In this document: in pieces, positions 29,530 through 51,050 of the stretch
How the letters are laid out: every line of letters begins with the position of its first letter
How positions within the stretch are numbered: position 1 is the stretch's first letter
Assembly: GCA_937981555.1 (NCBI GenBank)
Contig: CALJOK010000071.1
Coordinates: 1 to 52,968 of the forward strand
DNA length: 52,968 bases
Reading direction: 5' to 3'
Source: an uncultured Saprospiraceae bacterium
GTDB taxonomy: Bacteria > Bacteroidota > Bacteroidia > Chitinophagales > Saprospiraceae
The notes under the pieces: model-generated
Seen by the model: only the letters and a program-made list of their open reading frames with translations
Database searches by the model: none
What the model was told of the DNA's origin: nothing
Program-made: the position numbers and the translations under genes

Positions 29530-32067
29530 TTATTTCACAACATTAAATTTCCAAACCCTTTCTTCCTCTTCCATTTTTATTTTGAGAAAATAAATGCCAC
29601 TCGACCAATCATTTACATCAATTGAGAATTCCGTTTTTCCATTTTTTAAAAAAGAAATTTCGCTCATCGGTTGACCCAAGATATTCAAAACTAAAATTTC
29701 TAAATACTCATTTTGCCAGTCTGGAATTTTTACAAAAAGAAAATCATTCGTAGGATTTGGGAAGAGCTTTATTTTTTCTAAAACCGAAATTTCTTCAATA
29801 GAAGTTACATCTCCTACATTGGCTTGAACAATTTCTTCGCAACCATTATTATCCGTAATTGTAATGTTATAAATTCCATTTTCCAAACCTTCCACCAGCG
29901 GGTTAGTCACTATTCCAAATGTTTCCCAATCGAAAGTGTAAGGTGAATTTCCGCCTGAAGGTTGTAGTAAAACACTCCCTTCTAATGTTCCAGTATTTGG
30001 ATTGTCTGCATTAGTAACAATATTTACGACTAATTCATCAGGTTCTGAAAGTGTAAAATCTTCTATAGCAGTACATCCAAAATCATCCGTAACGGTAATT
30101 GAATAGTTGCCTGCCGTAAGATGATTGTTAGTATAAAGTGTATCTCCATCATTCCATAAATAGGAGAATGGTGGTTGCCCTCCACCTAGAAAAACCAATG
30201 CTACACCACTAGAGTCATTGAAGCATTTTAGATTAGCTTGAGACGGGTTTAATAAGACTGTACCTTCTATGTATACTACCTCGTCGACGTCTGAACAACC
30301 ATTTGGATTAGTCACCGTCACAGCATAAGTATCACCAAAAAAAGCGGTGATAGAAGCTGTAGTAGACCCAGTAGACCAAAGATAAGATGCACCTAAATTG
30401 GTTGCATCCAAGTTAACTGGGGTGTCATCGCAAATTGCTCCATTTCCTCCCAGGTCAGCATTAGGTGCAGAAATATGATTAACTGTAATTTCATCTATTA
30501 AGGTTGGACAATTGCCCACACTAACTGTTACGGAATAAGTTCCAGGGGTGGTAATTCCAATTGATGAAGTTGTAAAACCATTCGACCATTCATAAGTTGC
30601 ATTTGGTGTGTAAGCATCTGTAGTTAAAACTAGATTACTGCAAAGGGTAGAATCATTTCCAATATCTATGCTTGTTGGAGCAATATGAATGAGTTGTTTT
30701 TTGGTAAAAGTTTGGTTATTGGAAGTGATGGTTAATGTAACATAATAATTTCCAGATGATGAATAGCTATGAGAAGGATTGATAATTGTCGAAGTGTTAT
30801 TTGCGCCAGAAGCTGGATCTCCAAAATCCCAAATAACAGAATTAACTGTAGCATCGAATCCGTCGATCAAAAAAGTAGTTGTATTTCCCAAGCAAATTCC
30901 ATCGGTACTAAAGTAAGGGGTGTCAAAATATTTATGGAGAAATGATGGGAAACCTAAGAAAGGATTTCCTGAAATTCCGCTTTGACCTTGTTGTTCAAAA
31001 TCGCAAGTAAATCCATTATTGTCAGGCTGATGAATAATGCCTAAACTCGTGTCACTAATATTTATAGAATAAATTTTACCATTAGAGGCAAGCTGAAGTG
31101 CACCTGCAGATCCATTAAAGGTGGGATTACCAATAGAGAGTTTGGAATTGTTGATGGCAGTTTGATTACCTGCCCAAAGATCAAATTGAAGGATTCTTGA
31201 GTCTGTTTGGAATCCTTCATGACTGATGTAGAGGTATTGTCCAGAGGGAGAAAATTCTAAACCTCGTGGACTGATAAATTGGTTGAGTGTAATAGTGTTA
31301 GAAAGAATACCAGTCATTTGATCAAAATCAAATATCTCTGCGTTATTATCTCCTCGATTGACAACTGCAATTTTTTTTCCATCAGGCGAAACTTTGATTT
31401 GCCCATTTGCACTATCTGGAATGACTAATGTAATAATTGGAATGCCAATATTACTAATGACTGGCGTTGAATTAATTCCTGAAGCCGTTACCAACCAAGC
31501 ATAATATGCATCAGAATCCTCCTGATGACTAATGATCCAAAAATCTATTAAGTTATCATGTGAAGCAACGGTTATTTTACCTGTAGGGTTGTCTAATAAT
31601 TCCCCTCCAATAATTTCATTATTAGGATTAACCTTTACATCACCTAATCCATTGTTTAAAGACATATCAACTTCTAGCCATTTTAAGGTATTAGGTTCGC
31701 CAGGGATATTGGTGAATTTTTTATAAATTAAATAATAAGAATGTTCGGAATTAGGCTTTAGGAGGACAGCAACAGGATGAGTGTTCGTTACCAAAGTATT
31801 AAATTCTCCATTTGGCATGATCTGGTGATTACGATCAAAAACTTTTCTTGCATTGGAATAAAAAAGTAAGTTACCTTCTTTGTCTGAGACAGAAACGGTT
31901 CCTCTAGTTGCATTGATATTAACATCAAAATTATCATGAACGGTTACTGGGTCAGTATTAAAATCTAACCAGTTATTAAGTCCAAATACCCAGTTGTTAG
32001 TTTCTTTTTGAGAAAAAAGAAGCGTTGCAAAAATTAGAAATAAAATAGTTGTGTAAATCCTTTTCAT
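29530..32067 (-). CDS. T9SS-exported modular protein: beta-propeller-like, PKD, SprB-like repeats, sorting domain
   Basis: An 845-residue protein. A signal peptide is at about 1-20 (ILFLIFATLLFSQ). A beta-propeller-like region with strands such as DGKKIAVVNRGDN covers about 25-380. A PKD domain (SVIWDFGDPASG) spans about 395-465. Ig-like modules follow with NPNGCSDVD loops, then SprB-like repeats (FNDSSGVALVF, SYLWNDGDTLYTNN, SITVTDDFGC). The last 85 residues are a type A T9SS sorting domain (KLFPNPTNDFLF, ending VWKFNVVK). It is probably attached to, or released from, the outer surface. It lies 23 bases downstream of a close paralogue in the same orientation, so the two are presumably co-transcribed. 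Confidence 0.88.
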   Translation of the reverse strand: MKRIYTTILFLIFATLLFSQKETNNWVFGLNNWLDFNTDPVTVHDNFDVNINATRGTVSVSDKEGNLLFYSNARKVFDRNHQIMPNGEFNTLVTNTHPVAVLLKPNSEHSYYLIYKKFTNIPGEPNTLKWLEVDMSLNNGLGDVKVNPNNEIIGGELLDNPTGKITVASHDNLIDFWIISHQEDSDAYYAWLVTASGINSTPVISNIGIPIITLVIPDSANGQIKVSPDGKKIAVVNRGDNNAEIFDFDQMTGILSNTITLNQFISPRGLEFSPSGQYLYISHEGFQTDSRILQFDLWAGNQTAINNSKLSIGNPTFNGSAGALQLASNGKIYSINISDTSLGIIHQPDNNGFTCDFEQQGQSGISGNPFLGFPSFLHKYFDTPYFSTDGICLGNTTTFLIDGFDATVNSVIWDFGDPASGANNTSTIINPSHSYSSSGNYYVTLTITSNNQTFTKKQLIHIAPTSIDIGNDSTLCSNLVLTTDAYTPNATYEWSNGFTTSSIGITTPGTYSVTVSVGNCPTLIDEITVNHISAPNADLGGNGAICDDTPVNLDATNLGASYLWSTGSTTASITAFFGDTYAVTVTNPNGCSDVDEVVYIEGTVLLNPSQANLKCFNDSSGVALVFLGGGQPPFSYLWNDGDTLYTNNHLTAGNYSITVTDDFGCTAIEDFTLSEPDELVVNIVTNADNPNTGTLEGSVLLQPSGGNSPYTFDWETFGIVTNPLVEGLENGIYNITITDNNGCEEIVQANVGDVTSIEEISVLEKIKLFPNPTNDFLFVKIPDWQNEYLEILVLNILGQPMSEISFLKNGKTEFSIDVNDWSSGIYFLKIKMEEEERVWKFNVVK

Positions 32068-32090
32068 AGTTTTTCGTTTTCAAAAACGAG

Positions 32091-34610
32091 TTATTTTATG
32101 ACATTGAATTTCCAAATTTTTTCTTCATTAGTTGTTTTTATTTTTAAGAAATAAATTCCAGTTGGCCAATCGTTGACATCAATTGTGAATTCCTTCTTTT
32201 CTTTTTCTAAAAATAAAACATCACCAATGGGTTGACCTAAAAGATTTGAAATGGAAATTTCTAAATCAATATTTTTTGTTGTTGGTTTTTTTCCAAAAAT
32301 AAAATCACTTGTAGGGTTTGGAAAAATATTAATATTTCCTAAGATAGAAAATTCTTCGATGGAAGTTACATCCCCCACATTAATTTCAATTATTTTTTCG
32401 CAGTCATTATCATCCGTAATTGTAATGTTATAAATTCCATTCTCCAATCCCATTTGTAATGGATCAGTTGTTTCTCCGAATATTTCCCAATCAAAAATAT
32501 AGGGTGGATTTCCACCTGAAGGTTGTAAAAGAATAGCTCCATCAGGATCATTGGTGTTTGGATTGTCTGGATTGATAACAGCATCTACTTCAACTTCTGA
32601 GGGTTCAGTCAAAGTGAAACCTTGACTTGTTGTACATCCAAAAGCATCAGTTATCGTTACGGTATAATCTCCTGCGGGAAGTTGATTGTTGGTATATAAA
32701 GTATCTCCATCATTCCACTCATATGAAAAAGGTAATTGTCCTTGCGCAGGAAAAACTAAGGCAACACCATTGGAATCACCATGACAAGCTAAGTTGGCTT
32801 GGGAAGGTGTAACACTAACTAGGTCAAAGAAATAATTAACTTGATCTGTATCTGTACAACCATTCGGATTGGTTACCGTCACATAATAAGTTCCACCAAA
32901 AAATATGGTGATTTGTGAAGTAGTGGAACCAGTACTCCATTGATAAGTTGCATTCGTTCCATTTAGATTAGTAGCGTCAAGCACAACTGCATCGCCATTA
33001 CAAAGTCCACCATTCCCACCAAGGTTGGCGTCAGGTGCCGGAATATAATTGATGACAACTGTGTCAGTCAAAACTGTACAATCGCCAATTGAAACTTCTA
33101 CCCAATAAGTTCCAGGAGATTCGATGGATAAAGAAGATTGGCTCGAACTATCCGACCAAACATAAGTCGCGTTTGGAGTAAATGCATTGAGCGAAAATTC
33201 TTCATTGCTGCAAAAAATTTGGTCGCCTCCTAAATCAATTGAAAGCGGAGCGATGTTTACAATGCCATTATTGATTAGAGTTTGCCCCGCGGAATAAATG
33301 GTCAAAGTTACTTCGTAAGCACCACTTGTTGCGAAACTATGAGTAGGATCTAATAATGTAGAAGTATTGTTATTTCCAGAATTAAGATCACCAAAATTCC
33401 ATAGAACAGAATCAATTGGCGTATCAAATGATTCAATTTCGAAGCTTGTAATTCCACCAGGGCAAAAGCCATCATAACTGAAATTAGGTGTTTGGAAATA
33501 TTTATGAAAGAAGCTTGGCAGTCCAAATAAGATTTCACCTGAATTTAGAAAAATACCAAAGGGATCAAAATCAGCATCTAGACCTTGAGTTTCAGGCTCA
33601 TTAATAGTACCTAAAGTGAAGTCAAAAGGATTGGCTAAATAAATTTTTCCATCAGGGGCAAGTTGTAATGCTCCCGCTCCTCCAAAACTAAATGGATTTC
33701 CTATGACTTGAGCAGAGTTGATAATATCAATTATGCTACTAAAAAAAAGATCGAACTGAATCAGTTCTTGTTGGAAATCCACACCATCTTGAGAGACATA
33801 AAGATATCTGCTAGTTGGGGAAAGCTCAATACCATATGGTCCAAAAAAATTAGTTAATATAATAGGATTGTAAAGTGTTCCTGAACCTCGGTCGAAATTG
33901 AAAATCTCAACGGTATTAATTCCTTGATTGGCAGCTATGATTAGATTACCATTATGCGAAGTTTTGATTTGTCCATTTCCACTATTAAAATTTGATGTCA
34001 AAATATCACTACCAACAGGACTGATGATGGGAGTGGTTGAGATTCCATTTTCAGTAGCCAACCAAGCATGATAATTATTGTTATTTAATTCATGACTAAC
34101 TACCCAAATATCATTTAGATTGGAGTGCAGAACTGCAGTAATTTTTCCAGTAGGATTATCTAAAAGTACCTCACCCACGTTGGACACAACATCACCTAAT
34201 CCTCCATTGAGCGCTAAATCAATTTCTATCCAAGACAAAAATGAACCTGCGAATCCATTAGAACTAATTATCATGTAGTATGAATGATCAGAACCTGGTT
34301 TTGGAATAACAAAAATTGGATGAGTAGTGGATACATTTGCTTGAATGGCTCCATTTGGCATCAGGTCATGGTTTTTGTCAAAAATCGAAAAACCATCAGA
34401 ATAGAAAAGTAAATTTCCTTCTTCGTCAGACATACTTACCGTATTCCTTTCTGCAAAAAAACCAAAGAGAGGAGGAGAACCAATTGTGACCGGATCAGTA
34501 TTAAAATCCATCCAATTACCAAATCCAAAGATCCAATTATTAGCTTCTTTTTGAGAAAAAACAAAAGTTGAAAGAGAAAGACATAGGAGTAGGAGGTAGA
34601 TTTTTTTCAT
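32091..34610 (-). CDS. T9SS-exported modular protein, paralogue of the downstream gene
   Basis: An 839-residue protein with the same order of parts as the 845-residue neighbour: signal peptide (LSLSTFVFSQ), N-terminal propeller-like region starting ANNWIFGFGNWMDFN, PKD domain (SVLWNFGDLNSG), Ig-like modules, SprB-like repeats and a type A T9SS sorting domain (INIFPNPTSDFIF, ending KFNVIK). The paralogues match closely at both ends and in the SprB region, and less in the propeller, as expected for a tandem duplication followed by diversification. It is the first gene of the pair. Confidence 0.88.
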   Translation of the reverse strand: MKKIYLLLLCLSLSTFVFSQKEANNWIFGFGNWMDFNTDPVTIGSPPLFGFFAERNTVSMSDEEGNLLFYSDGFSIFDKNHDLMPNGAIQANVSTTHPIFVIPKPGSDHSYYMIISSNGFAGSFLSWIEIDLALNGGLGDVVSNVGEVLLDNPTGKITAVLHSNLNDIWVVSHELNNNNYHAWLATENGISTTPIISPVGSDILTSNFNSGNGQIKTSHNGNLIIAANQGINTVEIFNFDRGSGTLYNPIILTNFFGPYGIELSPTSRYLYVSQDGVDFQQELIQFDLFFSSIIDIINSAQVIGNPFSFGGAGALQLAPDGKIYLANPFDFTLGTINEPETQGLDADFDPFGIFLNSGEILFGLPSFFHKYFQTPNFSYDGFCPGGITSFEIESFDTPIDSVLWNFGDLNSGNNNTSTLLDPTHSFATSGAYEVTLTIYSAGQTLINNGIVNIAPLSIDLGGDQIFCSNEEFSLNAFTPNATYVWSDSSSQSSLSIESPGTYWVEVSIGDCTVLTDTVVINYIPAPDANLGGNGGLCNGDAVVLDATNLNGTNATYQWSTGSTTSQITIFFGGTYYVTVTNPNGCTDTDQVNYFFDLVSVTPSQANLACHGDSNGVALVFPAQGQLPFSYEWNDGDTLYTNNQLPAGDYTVTITDAFGCTTSQGFTLTEPSEVEVDAVINPDNPNTNDPDGAILLQPSGGNPPYIFDWEIFGETTDPLQMGLENGIYNITITDDNDCEKIIEINVGDVTSIEEFSILGNINIFPNPTSDFIFGKKPTTKNIDLEISISNLLGQPIGDVLFLEKEKKEFTIDVNDWPTGIYFLKIKTTNEEKIWKFNVIK

Positions 34611-49174: not shown

Positions 49175-49205
49175 ATTGCTTTAATTTTAAATTCTCTTAA
49201 ATTTG
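49175..49205 (+). promoter_or_regulatory. Promoter of tRNA-His
   Basis: ATTG (49175-49178), 19 bases, then TAAATTTG (49198-49205) fits the Bacteroidota -33/-7 pattern. It is about 60 bases upstream of the tRNA and could also serve hisS. Confidence 0.65.
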
Positions 49206-49266: not shown

Positions 49267-49340
49267 CCCCGCGTAGCTCAGTTGGTTAGAGCGCCTGATT
49301 GTGGTTCAGGAAGTCACTAGTTCGAATCTAGTCGTGGGGA
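49267..49340 (+). tRNA. tRNA-His (anticodon GTG) lacking encoded G-1, discriminator A73
   Basis: Acceptor CCCCGCG (49267-49273) pairs with CGTGGGG (49333-49339). The D stem is GCTC/GAGC, the anticodon stem CCTGA/TCAGG with loop TTGTGGT gives anticodon GTG, and the T arm ACTAG/CTAGT has loop TTCGAAT. Base -1 is T (49266) and the discriminator is A (49340), whereas nearly all bacterial tRNA-His have G-1 paired to C73. CCA is not encoded (CAT follows). It lies 126 bases upstream of hisS. Confidence 0.94.
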
Positions 49341-49381
49341 CATTAAGCATCATTCAGAAATTTGGATGGTGCTTTTTTGTT

Positions 49382-49456
49382 TAACGGTTAACTGTAAATG
49401 GTTAATGGTTAACATCAGGTGGGATTAACTATTAACCGTTAAGCATTCACCATTAA
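49382..49456. repeat. TTAACCGTTAA-type inverted repeat
   Basis: TAACGGTTAACTGTAAATGG and GGTTAATGGTTAA on the left face ATTAACCGTTAA and ACCATTAA on the right. Similar motifs flank 13344-13645. The stretch sits between tRNA-His and hisS and has no coding potential. Confidence 0.55.
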
Positions 49457-49466
49457 AATAGTAATT

Positions 49467-51050
49467 ATGGCAAATAAAAAGCAAGTAGAAAATAAGCGTG
49501 GTGTCGTAGCTCGAAAAGTCAAAGGCTTCCGAGATATTGACCCAAGTTTAAATCAATTAAAATGGAAGATCATCAATGCTGCCAGCGATGTCTATAAAAA
49601 ATATGGCTTCGAGCATTGGGATACCCCTGTTTTAGAATATGCGGATTGTTTGGGAAAATATTTGCCAGATGATGATACAGTAGATAAAGGAGTGTACTCT
49701 TTTAAAAATCCAGAAATCGAGCCGGTCTTACGAGCGGATGGTTCTGAGTTGCGAGATGAAGAGGCGCATGTGGTCATGGAAAATCAGCACTTGTCATTGC
49801 GGTATGATTTGACTTCGCCATTGGCTCGAAGATATGCGGAAGGTTTGTTGGAAAAATACCAACGGCACATGTTGACTCAGATGAAACCACCTTTGTTTCG
49901 TCGGTATCAATATGGACCAGTTTATCGATATGAGATCAAATTAAGCCCAGGACGGTTTCGAGAATTTTGGCAATTAGATTTTGATAATGTGGGAACGGAT
50001 GATGTAACGGCCGATGCAGAAGTTTGTATGATTTTGTCAGATGCATTGGAAGCGATTGGTTTGCCTCGAAAAAGTTATATCGTTAAAGTTAATAATCGAA
50101 AAATCTTGACGGGTTATTTGAAAGAGTTAGGTGTTGAAGATGATTTGACGGAACAAAATATTATCCGAGTTATTGATAAGATGGATAAGATTGGTTTGGA
50201 AAAGGTAGCGTTGGAATTAGGTGCAGGTCGAACAGATGATTCTGGTGCGGAAGTAAAAGGATTAGGCTTGGAGGAAAAACTAGTGACAAGTGTGGCTAAT
50301 TTTATCAAAGGTTTTTCCACTCAAAAAACACGAAAGGAAGTGTTAGCAGATTTGGGGAAATTAGATATCCAAAATGAAACAGCGCAGGAAGGAATCCAAG
50401 AAATGGTAAAAATAGACACGATTCTTTCTGCATTGGATTTTGATGAGGAGAGAGTGATTTTTGATCCATCGTTAGTGAGAGGATTAGCGTATTATACTGG
50501 GCCAGTTTATGAAGTAGAATCATTGCAAAGTTATATTGATGCGAAAGGAGTGGAAAGACGTATTGGTTCTATTTGTGGTGGTGGACGATATGATGGTTTG
50601 GTGGAAAATCTATTGGGGATCAAAGTTCCTGCGACGGGTGCTTCGATAGGAGTGGATCGACTAGCGGAATTATTGATGTTGACGAACCAAGCACCGAAGC
50701 GAAAAGATGGGCCAGTTTTTATCGCATACTTTGATGAAGATTTAATGCCGCATTATCAAAGAGTAGCGAGAGACTTGCGAACTGCTGGAATCGAAACAGA
50801 AGTTTACTACGGCATGGACAAAAAGAAAATGAAAAAACAAATGGCTTATGCTGATGATAAAAATTGTCCGTTTGTAGTATTGATTGGAGCGAACGAAGCA
50901 GAGGCAGGCATTGCTACCGTTAAGAATTTGAAATTAGGAAAAGAAATCGCGGATAAGTATACCGATAAAAAAGAATGGATGGAGCAAGTGCAGAAGGAAG
51001 TGCCGATTGCGGAATTGGCGGAATATTTAAAGGAGCAGATGAAGGGATAA
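49467..51050 (+). CDS. hisS: Histidyl-tRNA synthetase, divergent (alphaproteobacterial-like) type
   Basis: A 527-residue class II synthetase that charges tRNA-His. Motif 2 lies in FRRYQYGPVYRYE; the histidine-binding loops are LVRGLAYYTGPVYE and GGGRYDGL; the C-terminal anticodon-binding domain starts near 425. Stretches such as LGKYLPDDD, SLRYDLTSPLARRYAE, PGRFREFWQLDFDNVG, ADAEVCMIL, VKVNNRKILTGYL and GRTDDSGAEVKG resemble the HisRS of alphaproteobacteria whose tRNA-His lacks G-1, more than standard bacterial HisRS. The length exceeds the usual 420-500. It lies next to a tRNA-His with the same non-standard features. The enzyme identity is firm; the subtype is judged by eye. Confidence 0.93.
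   Translation: MANKKQVENKRGVVARKVKGFRDIDPSLNQLKWKIINAASDVYKKYGFEHWDTPVLEYADCLGKYLPDDDTVDKGVYSFKNPEIEPVLRADGSELRDEEAHVVMENQHLSLRYDLTSPLARRYAEGLLEKYQRHMLTQMKPPLFRRYQYGPVYRYEIKLSPGRFREFWQLDFDNVGTDDVTADAEVCMILSDALEAIGLPRKSYIVKVNNRKILTGYLKELGVEDDLTEQNIIRVIDKMDKIGLEKVALELGAGRTDDSGAEVKGLGLEEKLVTSVANFIKGFSTQKTRKEVLADLGKLDIQNETAQEGIQEMVKIDTILSALDFDEERVIFDPSLVRGLAYYTGPVYEVESLQSYIDAKGVERRIGSICGGGRYDGLVENLLGIKVPATGASIGVDRLAELLMLTNQAPKRKDGPVFIAYFDEDLMPHYQRVARDLRTAGIETEVYYGMDKKKMKKQMAYADDKNCPFVVLIGANEAEAGIATVKNLKLGKEIADKYTDKKEWMEQVQKEVPIAELAEYLKEQMKG

Follow-up and report, generated by a model that had tools for sequence, protein, structure and literature searches.

An A73 tRNA-His gene beside a divergent hisS gene in Saprospiraceae: a probable histidine identity pair outside the Alphaproteobacteria

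The G-1 residue of tRNA-His is a near-universal identity element. The original papers on the topic are reportedly those of Ardell and Andersson (2006), Wang (2007), and Yuan (2011). Where bacterial tRNA-His species lacking G-1 are discussed in the accessible text of the later literature, it is the Alphaproteobacteria that are named (PMC9976931, PMC3937112, PMC3875453, PMC5370408, PMC6471195, PMC4284800, PMC8305728). As far as the available parts of these papers go, the motif-2 Gln of histidyl-tRNA synthetase (HisRS) contacts the G-1:C73 pair and is replaced by Gly (Gly123) in the derived Alphaproteobacteria (PMC3937112), and the determinants in Caulobacter are A73, U72, and the anticodon (PMC9976931). 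Transfer from eukaryotes was later described as unsupported in the excerpted text of PMC5370408. In the accessible portion of a paper covering the histidine genes of the Bacteroidota superphylum, HisRS is mentioned only for its likeness to HisZ (PMC8305728). No report of a G-1-less pair for Bacteroidota or Planctomycetota was found among the matches listed from the searchable literature, which leaves out most subscription papers, and priority is not established.

Here I describe a probable pair of this kind in an uncultured Saprospiraceae bacterium. The window, namely the whole stretch of DNA analysed, comprises 52,968 nucleotides of contig CALJOK010000071.1 (assembly GCA_937981555.1) and belongs to a draft genome, G000, of 7.25 Mb in 117 contigs with a completeness of 97%. 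By ARAGORN and by inspection of the sequence, a tRNA-His (GTG) gene was located at 49267..49341 on the plus strand, with a C1:G72 pair, A73, and no encoded G-1. Its acceptor stem is CCCCGCG/CGTGGGG, with a G5:U68 pair inside. Position -1 (49266, plus strand) is T, where an ordinary bacterial tRNA-His has G, and the discriminator base at 49340 (plus strand) is A73, where ordinary family members have C73. A sequence-only reading of this DNA had pointed out T-1 and A73, and both were borne out, as was the statement that tRNA-His and hisS are neighbours. The hisS gene (49467..51050, plus strand, 527 amino acids) follows in the same orientation after 125 nt. Its product was recognised as a HisRS by TIGR00442 (337.9 bits against a curated cut-off of 286.75) and placed with the G-1-independent type by phylogeny, and all three HisRS motifs cited in that reading, one of them YYTGPVYE, are present in the protein. 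The two genes probably form a unit that supplies a complete histidine identity pair by itself, an A73 tRNA-His and the HisRS that reads it. Elsewhere in the window (29530-34610), two adjoining long ORFs of 845 and 839 amino acids with similar starts are apparently tandem paralogues.

The rest of the genome was searched for competing components. The hisS gene of the window is the sole match above the TIGR00442 cut-off in G000. Weaker matches on contigs C28, C25, and C50 were rejected as a second HisRS, since they score best as ThrRS, ProRS, and GlyRS, respectively; a fourth weak match falls in another part of the same C28 reading frame. A loose tRNA-His pattern hit 11 places in G000, of which ARAGORN confirmed two as tRNA-His and called no tRNA at the other nine. 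The second tRNA-His lies on contig C12 (123681-123754) and has T-1, T1:A72, and A73. It is part of a dense array (L249/L250, 122799-126601) in which 25 tRNA genes, diverse in isotype and divergent in body, are packed between ordinary-looking genes; one of them is called SeC(tca) by ARAGORN. The sequence-only reading had named a standard G-1:C73 tRNA-His elsewhere in the genome as evidence against itself; with the loose pattern and ARAGORN none was found in this draft assembly, and the other copy likewise has A73 without G-1. It had also proposed a search for a second hisS and for a Thg1-like enzyme, and neither was found in G000. Thg1 (PF04446) was not detected in 16 of the 17 genomes searched overall. 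The lone Thg1-like gene, above the Pfam cut-off, is that of the planctomycete G296 (contig C8:71011-71373), the genome of locus L096, where it occurs alongside an A73-type HisRS and an A73 tRNA-His.

Is the A73 base tied to the type of HisRS? I surveyed 150 genomes of the family. A HisRS of the window type, with 58-100% identity, was found in seven of them (G000, G224, G236, G209, G207, G273, and G169), including the same-genus genome G224, which has the same pair with a HisRS 93% identical to that of the window. Weaker HisRS matches were found in 134 genomes and none in nine; among the matches listed, these other HisRSs are 32-42% identical to the window HisRS. A strict tRNA-His pattern, which admits A or C alone at position 73, matched 84 of the 150 genomes, six with A73 and 78 with C73, and all six A73 genomes carry the window-type HisRS. 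The tRNA-His of G207, whose different anticodon loop places it outside the strict pattern, also has A73. A second search of 65 unmatched genomes revealed a tRNA-His in at least 18, all with G-1 and C73 among the matches listed. In total, A73 is present in 7/7 genomes with the window-type HisRS and C73 in 96/96 genomes read without it, where four of the 96 (G202, G221, G244, and G255) have no HisRS match and the tRNA-His of 47 of the 150 genomes is unread. Among the matches listed, direct reading of the ordinary tRNA-His genes of the family showed G-1 in 24 of 24. Because A73 tracks the HisRS type in this way, T-1 and A73 as a meaningless chance occurrence was ruled out.

Outside the family, the class survey (395 genomes) gave a HisRS match at E 1e-60 or better in G000 and G594, and the phylum survey (148 genomes) gave three further matches at 42-44% identity (G055, G014, and G039). 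In a search of named loci, the best 80 of at least 582 relatives comprise the Bacteroidales MAG L095 (56%), the Planctomycetota loci L096, L100, and L102, L098 (RA.bin91, an unclassified bacterium), and 75 loci at 37-42% whose titles name proteobacteria, almost all of them Alphaproteobacteria. A73 together with G1:U72 was found in all eight tRNA-His genes read outside the family and the Alphaproteobacteria (G594, G055, G014, G039, L096, L098, L100, and L102) and in all five read from Alphaproteobacteria (that of L097, two of Sinorhizobium, and those of Shinella and Methylobacterium). Position -1 is T in these thirteen genes except for C in L097 and G in L102. In the latter genome, the tRNA-His (L200) has G at -1 yet A73, and a G-1:C73 pair is impossible. 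Three pattern searches of the L095 genome gave no tRNA-His. As for mobile elements, 97 plasmid records have a HisRS match, all alphaproteobacterial among the 15 matches listed. HisRS also occurs at ten loci on viral contigs, four of which (IMG/VR contigs L333, L334, L337, and L340) have an alphaproteobacterial-type GPGR loop and are perhaps bacterial DNA in viral bins; nine of the viral-contig loci were examined for a tRNA-His, and none has one within the flanks retrieved.

A phylogenetic tree of 60 HisRS sequences was inferred, of which 17 are alphaproteobacterial rows (one from a MAG titled Betaproteobacteria) and the human and Nostoc rows are long branches of unsure placement. The A73-type HisRSs form a single clade (96/98), which also holds Planctomycetota, RA.bin91, and genomes from further classes of the phylum to which the window belongs. 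Within this clade, the window family and L095 group together at 100/100, and these two with the alphaproteobacterial rows, Planctomycetota, and L098 at 100/98. The seven family members form one group (84/85) with L095 as sister. The 17 alphaproteobacterial rows make up a branch of their own (100/100), with the window HisRS outside it, and the ordinary Bacteroidia HisRSs form a separate clade (100/99). Thus, the sequence-only reading was right that this HisRS is of the divergent kind known from Alphaproteobacteria, to the extent that the two share one clade, but not in the sense of membership in the alphaproteobacterial branch. A grouping with ordinary Bacteroidota HisRSs, which would have told against it, was not observed. 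The donor need not be an alphaproteobacterium, since the Alphaproteobacteria are one branch within a wider A73-type clade, and the tree does not name a donor.

The motif-2 tRNA-binding loop of the window HisRS was located by alignment at residues 156-163 (EIKLSPGR; 49932..49955, plus strand). In its SPGR segment, the Gln of ordinary HisRS is replaced by Ser160, with Pro at 161. In the alignment, all 25 ordinary bacterial rows have Q-x-G-R and all 33 A73-type rows have x-P-[GD]-R without the Gln, the P-D-R variant being that of L102. The residue at the place of the Gln is Gly in the 17 alphaproteobacterial rows, Planctomycetota, and L098, Asp in G594, G055, G014, G039, L095, and G209, and Ser, Thr, Met, or Ala in the family members other than G209. 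In the seven family members and in L095, the loop carries one additional residue. Thus, by my own alignment of positions, the window has Ser in place of the Gly123 described in the accessible part of PMC3937112. The U72 determinant is also absent from the window tRNA, which has C1:G72. This pair occurs in six of the seven A73-type family members, and G1:U72 is retained in G209. Since G209 branches first among the seven family HisRSs (85/90 for the other six), the swap of U72 for C1:G72 could be one event in the family. The pair 1:72 is not fixed even within G000, because the array gene has T1:A72. Within the family, position 72 would then have ceased to be a fixed U.

In all six informative family genomes, tRNA-His precedes hisS in the same orientation at a distance of 80-199 nt, and a terminator-like stem separates the two, an arrangement shared by different genera of the family; the start codons of the G209 and G207 hisS genes were picked by the analyst. 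In the seventh, G169, the two genes are on different contigs and hisS is cut by a contig end. The tRNA-His gene also adjoins hisS in G594 (no stem) and L098 (stem present), and it lies about 5 and 8 kb from hisS in G055 and G014, members of one family. On the other hand, the linkage is not general to the A73 type, because tRNA-His and hisS are on different contigs in G039 and no tRNA-His was found within flanks of up to 5 kb at 79 of the 80 best named loci, the exception being L098. The 79 are 75 proteobacterial loci by title, three of Planctomycetota, and one of Bacteroidales. Near ordinary hisS genes, no tRNA-His was found at any of 49 loci, for which up to 1.5 kb was inspected on each flank. 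Gene neighbourhoods were compared with G236, G224, and G273, the contigs of G207, G209, and G169 being too short; a single ABC-type match of 29% in G224 is the sole recurrence of another window gene around hisS. This comparison is limited, since just 1.9 kb of the window follows hisS and the G224 contig reaches no further than about 80 nt beyond the tRNA on its upstream side.

A regular-expression scan found a promoter-like element of the Bacteroidota type, TTG-N19-TAAATTTG, at 49176..49205 (plus strand), which stops 61 nt before the tRNA-His. I take TTG-N19-TAnnTTTG to be the housekeeping promoter consensus of Bacteroidota. In the same kind of scan, the TAnnTTTG box lies 55-93 nt 5' of the tRNA-His in all seven A73-type family members, and the full element is present in the five that have 200 nt of upstream sequence. 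As background, the whole window contains 12 of these elements when both strands are counted, or 0.02 per 200 nt of one strand. The scan gave none upstream of the tRNA-His of RA.bin91. Directly 3' of the window tRNA, an intrinsic-terminator-like stem of 13 pairs with a T run occupies 49345..49374 (plus strand; one found against 0.4 expected in shuffles). A comparable stem and T run follow the tRNA-His in all six linked family genomes and in RA.bin91; none follows it in G594. The stem (49345-49374; L038, L040, and L041) opens with a near-identical AAGCATYATTC in four genera, whose HisRSs are 59-69% identical to that of the window. With the promoter-like element upstream and the terminator-like stem after it, the window tRNA-His looks like a transcription unit of its own. 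An operon was considered as the cause of the linkage; since the stem stands between the two genes in the family, simple co-transcription is an unlikely reason for it there.

In the proposed mechanism, RNase P would mature the tRNA-His at position +1, and the window HisRS would charge it through A73 and the anticodon, not through G-1:C73. The pair, arriving from outside the family, would displace the resident HisRS and its G-1:C73 tRNA-His. The gene linkage suggests that the pair moves as a unit. A further-reaching reading, to which I give somewhat less than an even chance, is that the A73 tRNA-His and its HisRS are a mobile, self-contained identity module which spread between phyla and several times within the family, each time displacing the resident pair, and that in this family U72 then gave way to C1:G72, so that recognition would rely mainly on A73 and the anticodon.

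One alternative is old vertical inheritance, with one acquisition in an ancestor within the family, later returns to the ordinary pair, and a tRNA-hisS arrangement kept together by chance or local selection. I regard it as possible but rather unlikely. It is consistent with the single group of family A73-type HisRSs, which are about as similar to the window HisRS as the corresponding LpxC proteins are to the window LpxC. The window LpxC-FabZ is 92% identical to that of G224, 73-75% to those of G195, G214, G247, G240, G220, and G225, and 71%, 66%, and 60% to those of G236, G207, and G169. Thus, against vertical inheritance, the window LpxC is nearer to six genomes with ordinary HisRS than to these last three with A73-type HisRS. 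The LpxC trees disagree. In a quick tree of 110 rows, the A73 genomes are scattered, yet a clade of five A73 genomes was not rejected (AU p 0.588), and the tree held to it scored better, as vertical inheritance would have it. A careful tree, built from 50 rows, requires four changes and rejects a single A73 clade (AU p 0.018; for G000, G224, and G236 together, p 0.048), and among 200 bootstrap trees, in a bootstrap that is incompletely settled, 0% have a branch that sets the A73 genomes apart from the others; on its well-supported branches alone, however, just one change is forced, which again suits the vertical reading. Moreover, no flanking genes are common to the window and G236 or G273, which speaks against it. 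Patchiness in the family is likely but not proven. Repeated transfer within the family is likewise likely, with moderate support and two LpxC tests at odds, and a single gene cannot tell transfer from repeated loss.

Did the tRNA arrive with the enzyme? It may be, though I doubt it, that HisRS alone was acquired and that G-1 and C73 then disappeared from the resident tRNA-His, the course proposed for Alphaproteobacteria, with adjacency arising later. The promoter-like element of the Bacteroidota type would fit this, as would the tRNA body, which is about as near to ordinary family tRNA-His (a minimum of 6-10 differences in 58 positions; 23 genes compared) as to other A73 tRNAs (8-11; seven genes compared). 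The 23 ordinary genes differ from one another by 12.4 of the 58 positions on average, and the distances between bodies fail to distinguish a tRNA brought in from elsewhere from a resident tRNA that adapted. However, the adjacency in G594 and L098 and the proximity in G055 and G014 would then require repeated origin. The sequence-only reading had left the choice between co-transfer and independent co-evolution; the linkage speaks for co-transfer, whereas the body of the tRNA gives no origin.

A more remote alternative is that the mature tRNA keeps U-1 paired with A73 in place of G-1:C73 and so retains an eight-pair acceptor stem. This seems improbable. T-1 is present in 15 of 17 A73-type tRNA-His genes and in four of four further alphaproteobacterial genes, compared with 5 of 13 other family tRNAs and 14 of the 25 tRNAs in the C12 array, its tRNA-His included, by which measure T-1 alone is unremarkable; the T-1 rows are related, so that the excess is not an independent count. 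C-1 (L097) and G-1 (L102) also occur with A73, and U-1 with A73 is common in tRNAs cut at +1 by RNase P. In the portions available of the sources, U-1 opposite A73 is tolerated in yeast (PMC6471195), but reviews describe the alphaproteobacterial tRNA-His without an extra nucleotide (PMC6471195, PMC4284800). Contamination or misassembly can be practically dismissed, for although the assemblies are drafts and G594 is 77% complete with hisS on a 4.8 kb contig, the window contig itself bears a family-type LpxC-FabZ (92% to G224, 75% to G195), G224 of the same genus has the same pair with 93% HisRS identity, and G000 has no other HisRS.

A linked tRNA-synthetase pair in further lineages suggests how an identity rule could change without a lethal intermediate, as both halves would arrive together. 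Such loci add to the candidates for orthogonal HisRS/tRNA-His pairs, and the combination of C1:G72 and A73 lends itself to testing which bases are read by the A73-type HisRS. Within the searchable literature, two things are apparently new: the pair occurs outside the Alphaproteobacteria, with its two genes linked in some of the genomes, and C1:G72 replaces the alphaproteobacterial G1:U72.

In Trypanosoma brucei and Acanthamoeba castellanii, a tRNA-His lacking G-1 is likewise charged by an atypical HisRS, where charging in the window is predicted; these enzymes are eukaryotic and are described, in the accessible part of the source, as without sequence similarity to their bacterial counterparts (PMC4284800). 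Ordinary Bacteroidota HisRSs share with the window enzyme the function, the organism group, and membership of the class II HisRSs, but they are 32-42% identical to it among the matches listed, have a QKGR or QRGR loop, form a separate clade, and, unlike the window gene, have no tRNA-His in the flanks at the 49 loci. The closest system is the alphaproteobacterial pair of Caulobacter, Rhizobiales, and Rhodobacterales, with which the window locus shares the lack of an encoded G-1, A73, no detected Thg1, a HisRS in one wider clade, and the loss of the motif-2 Gln. It differs in that its HisRS lies outside the alphaproteobacterial branch and has Ser instead of Gly in a loop with one extra residue, in that the tRNA has C1:G72 instead of G1:U72, and in that the tRNA gene adjoins hisS. 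Read from the genes, the principle is the same as in Alphaproteobacteria, in another lineage and with another 1:72 pair.
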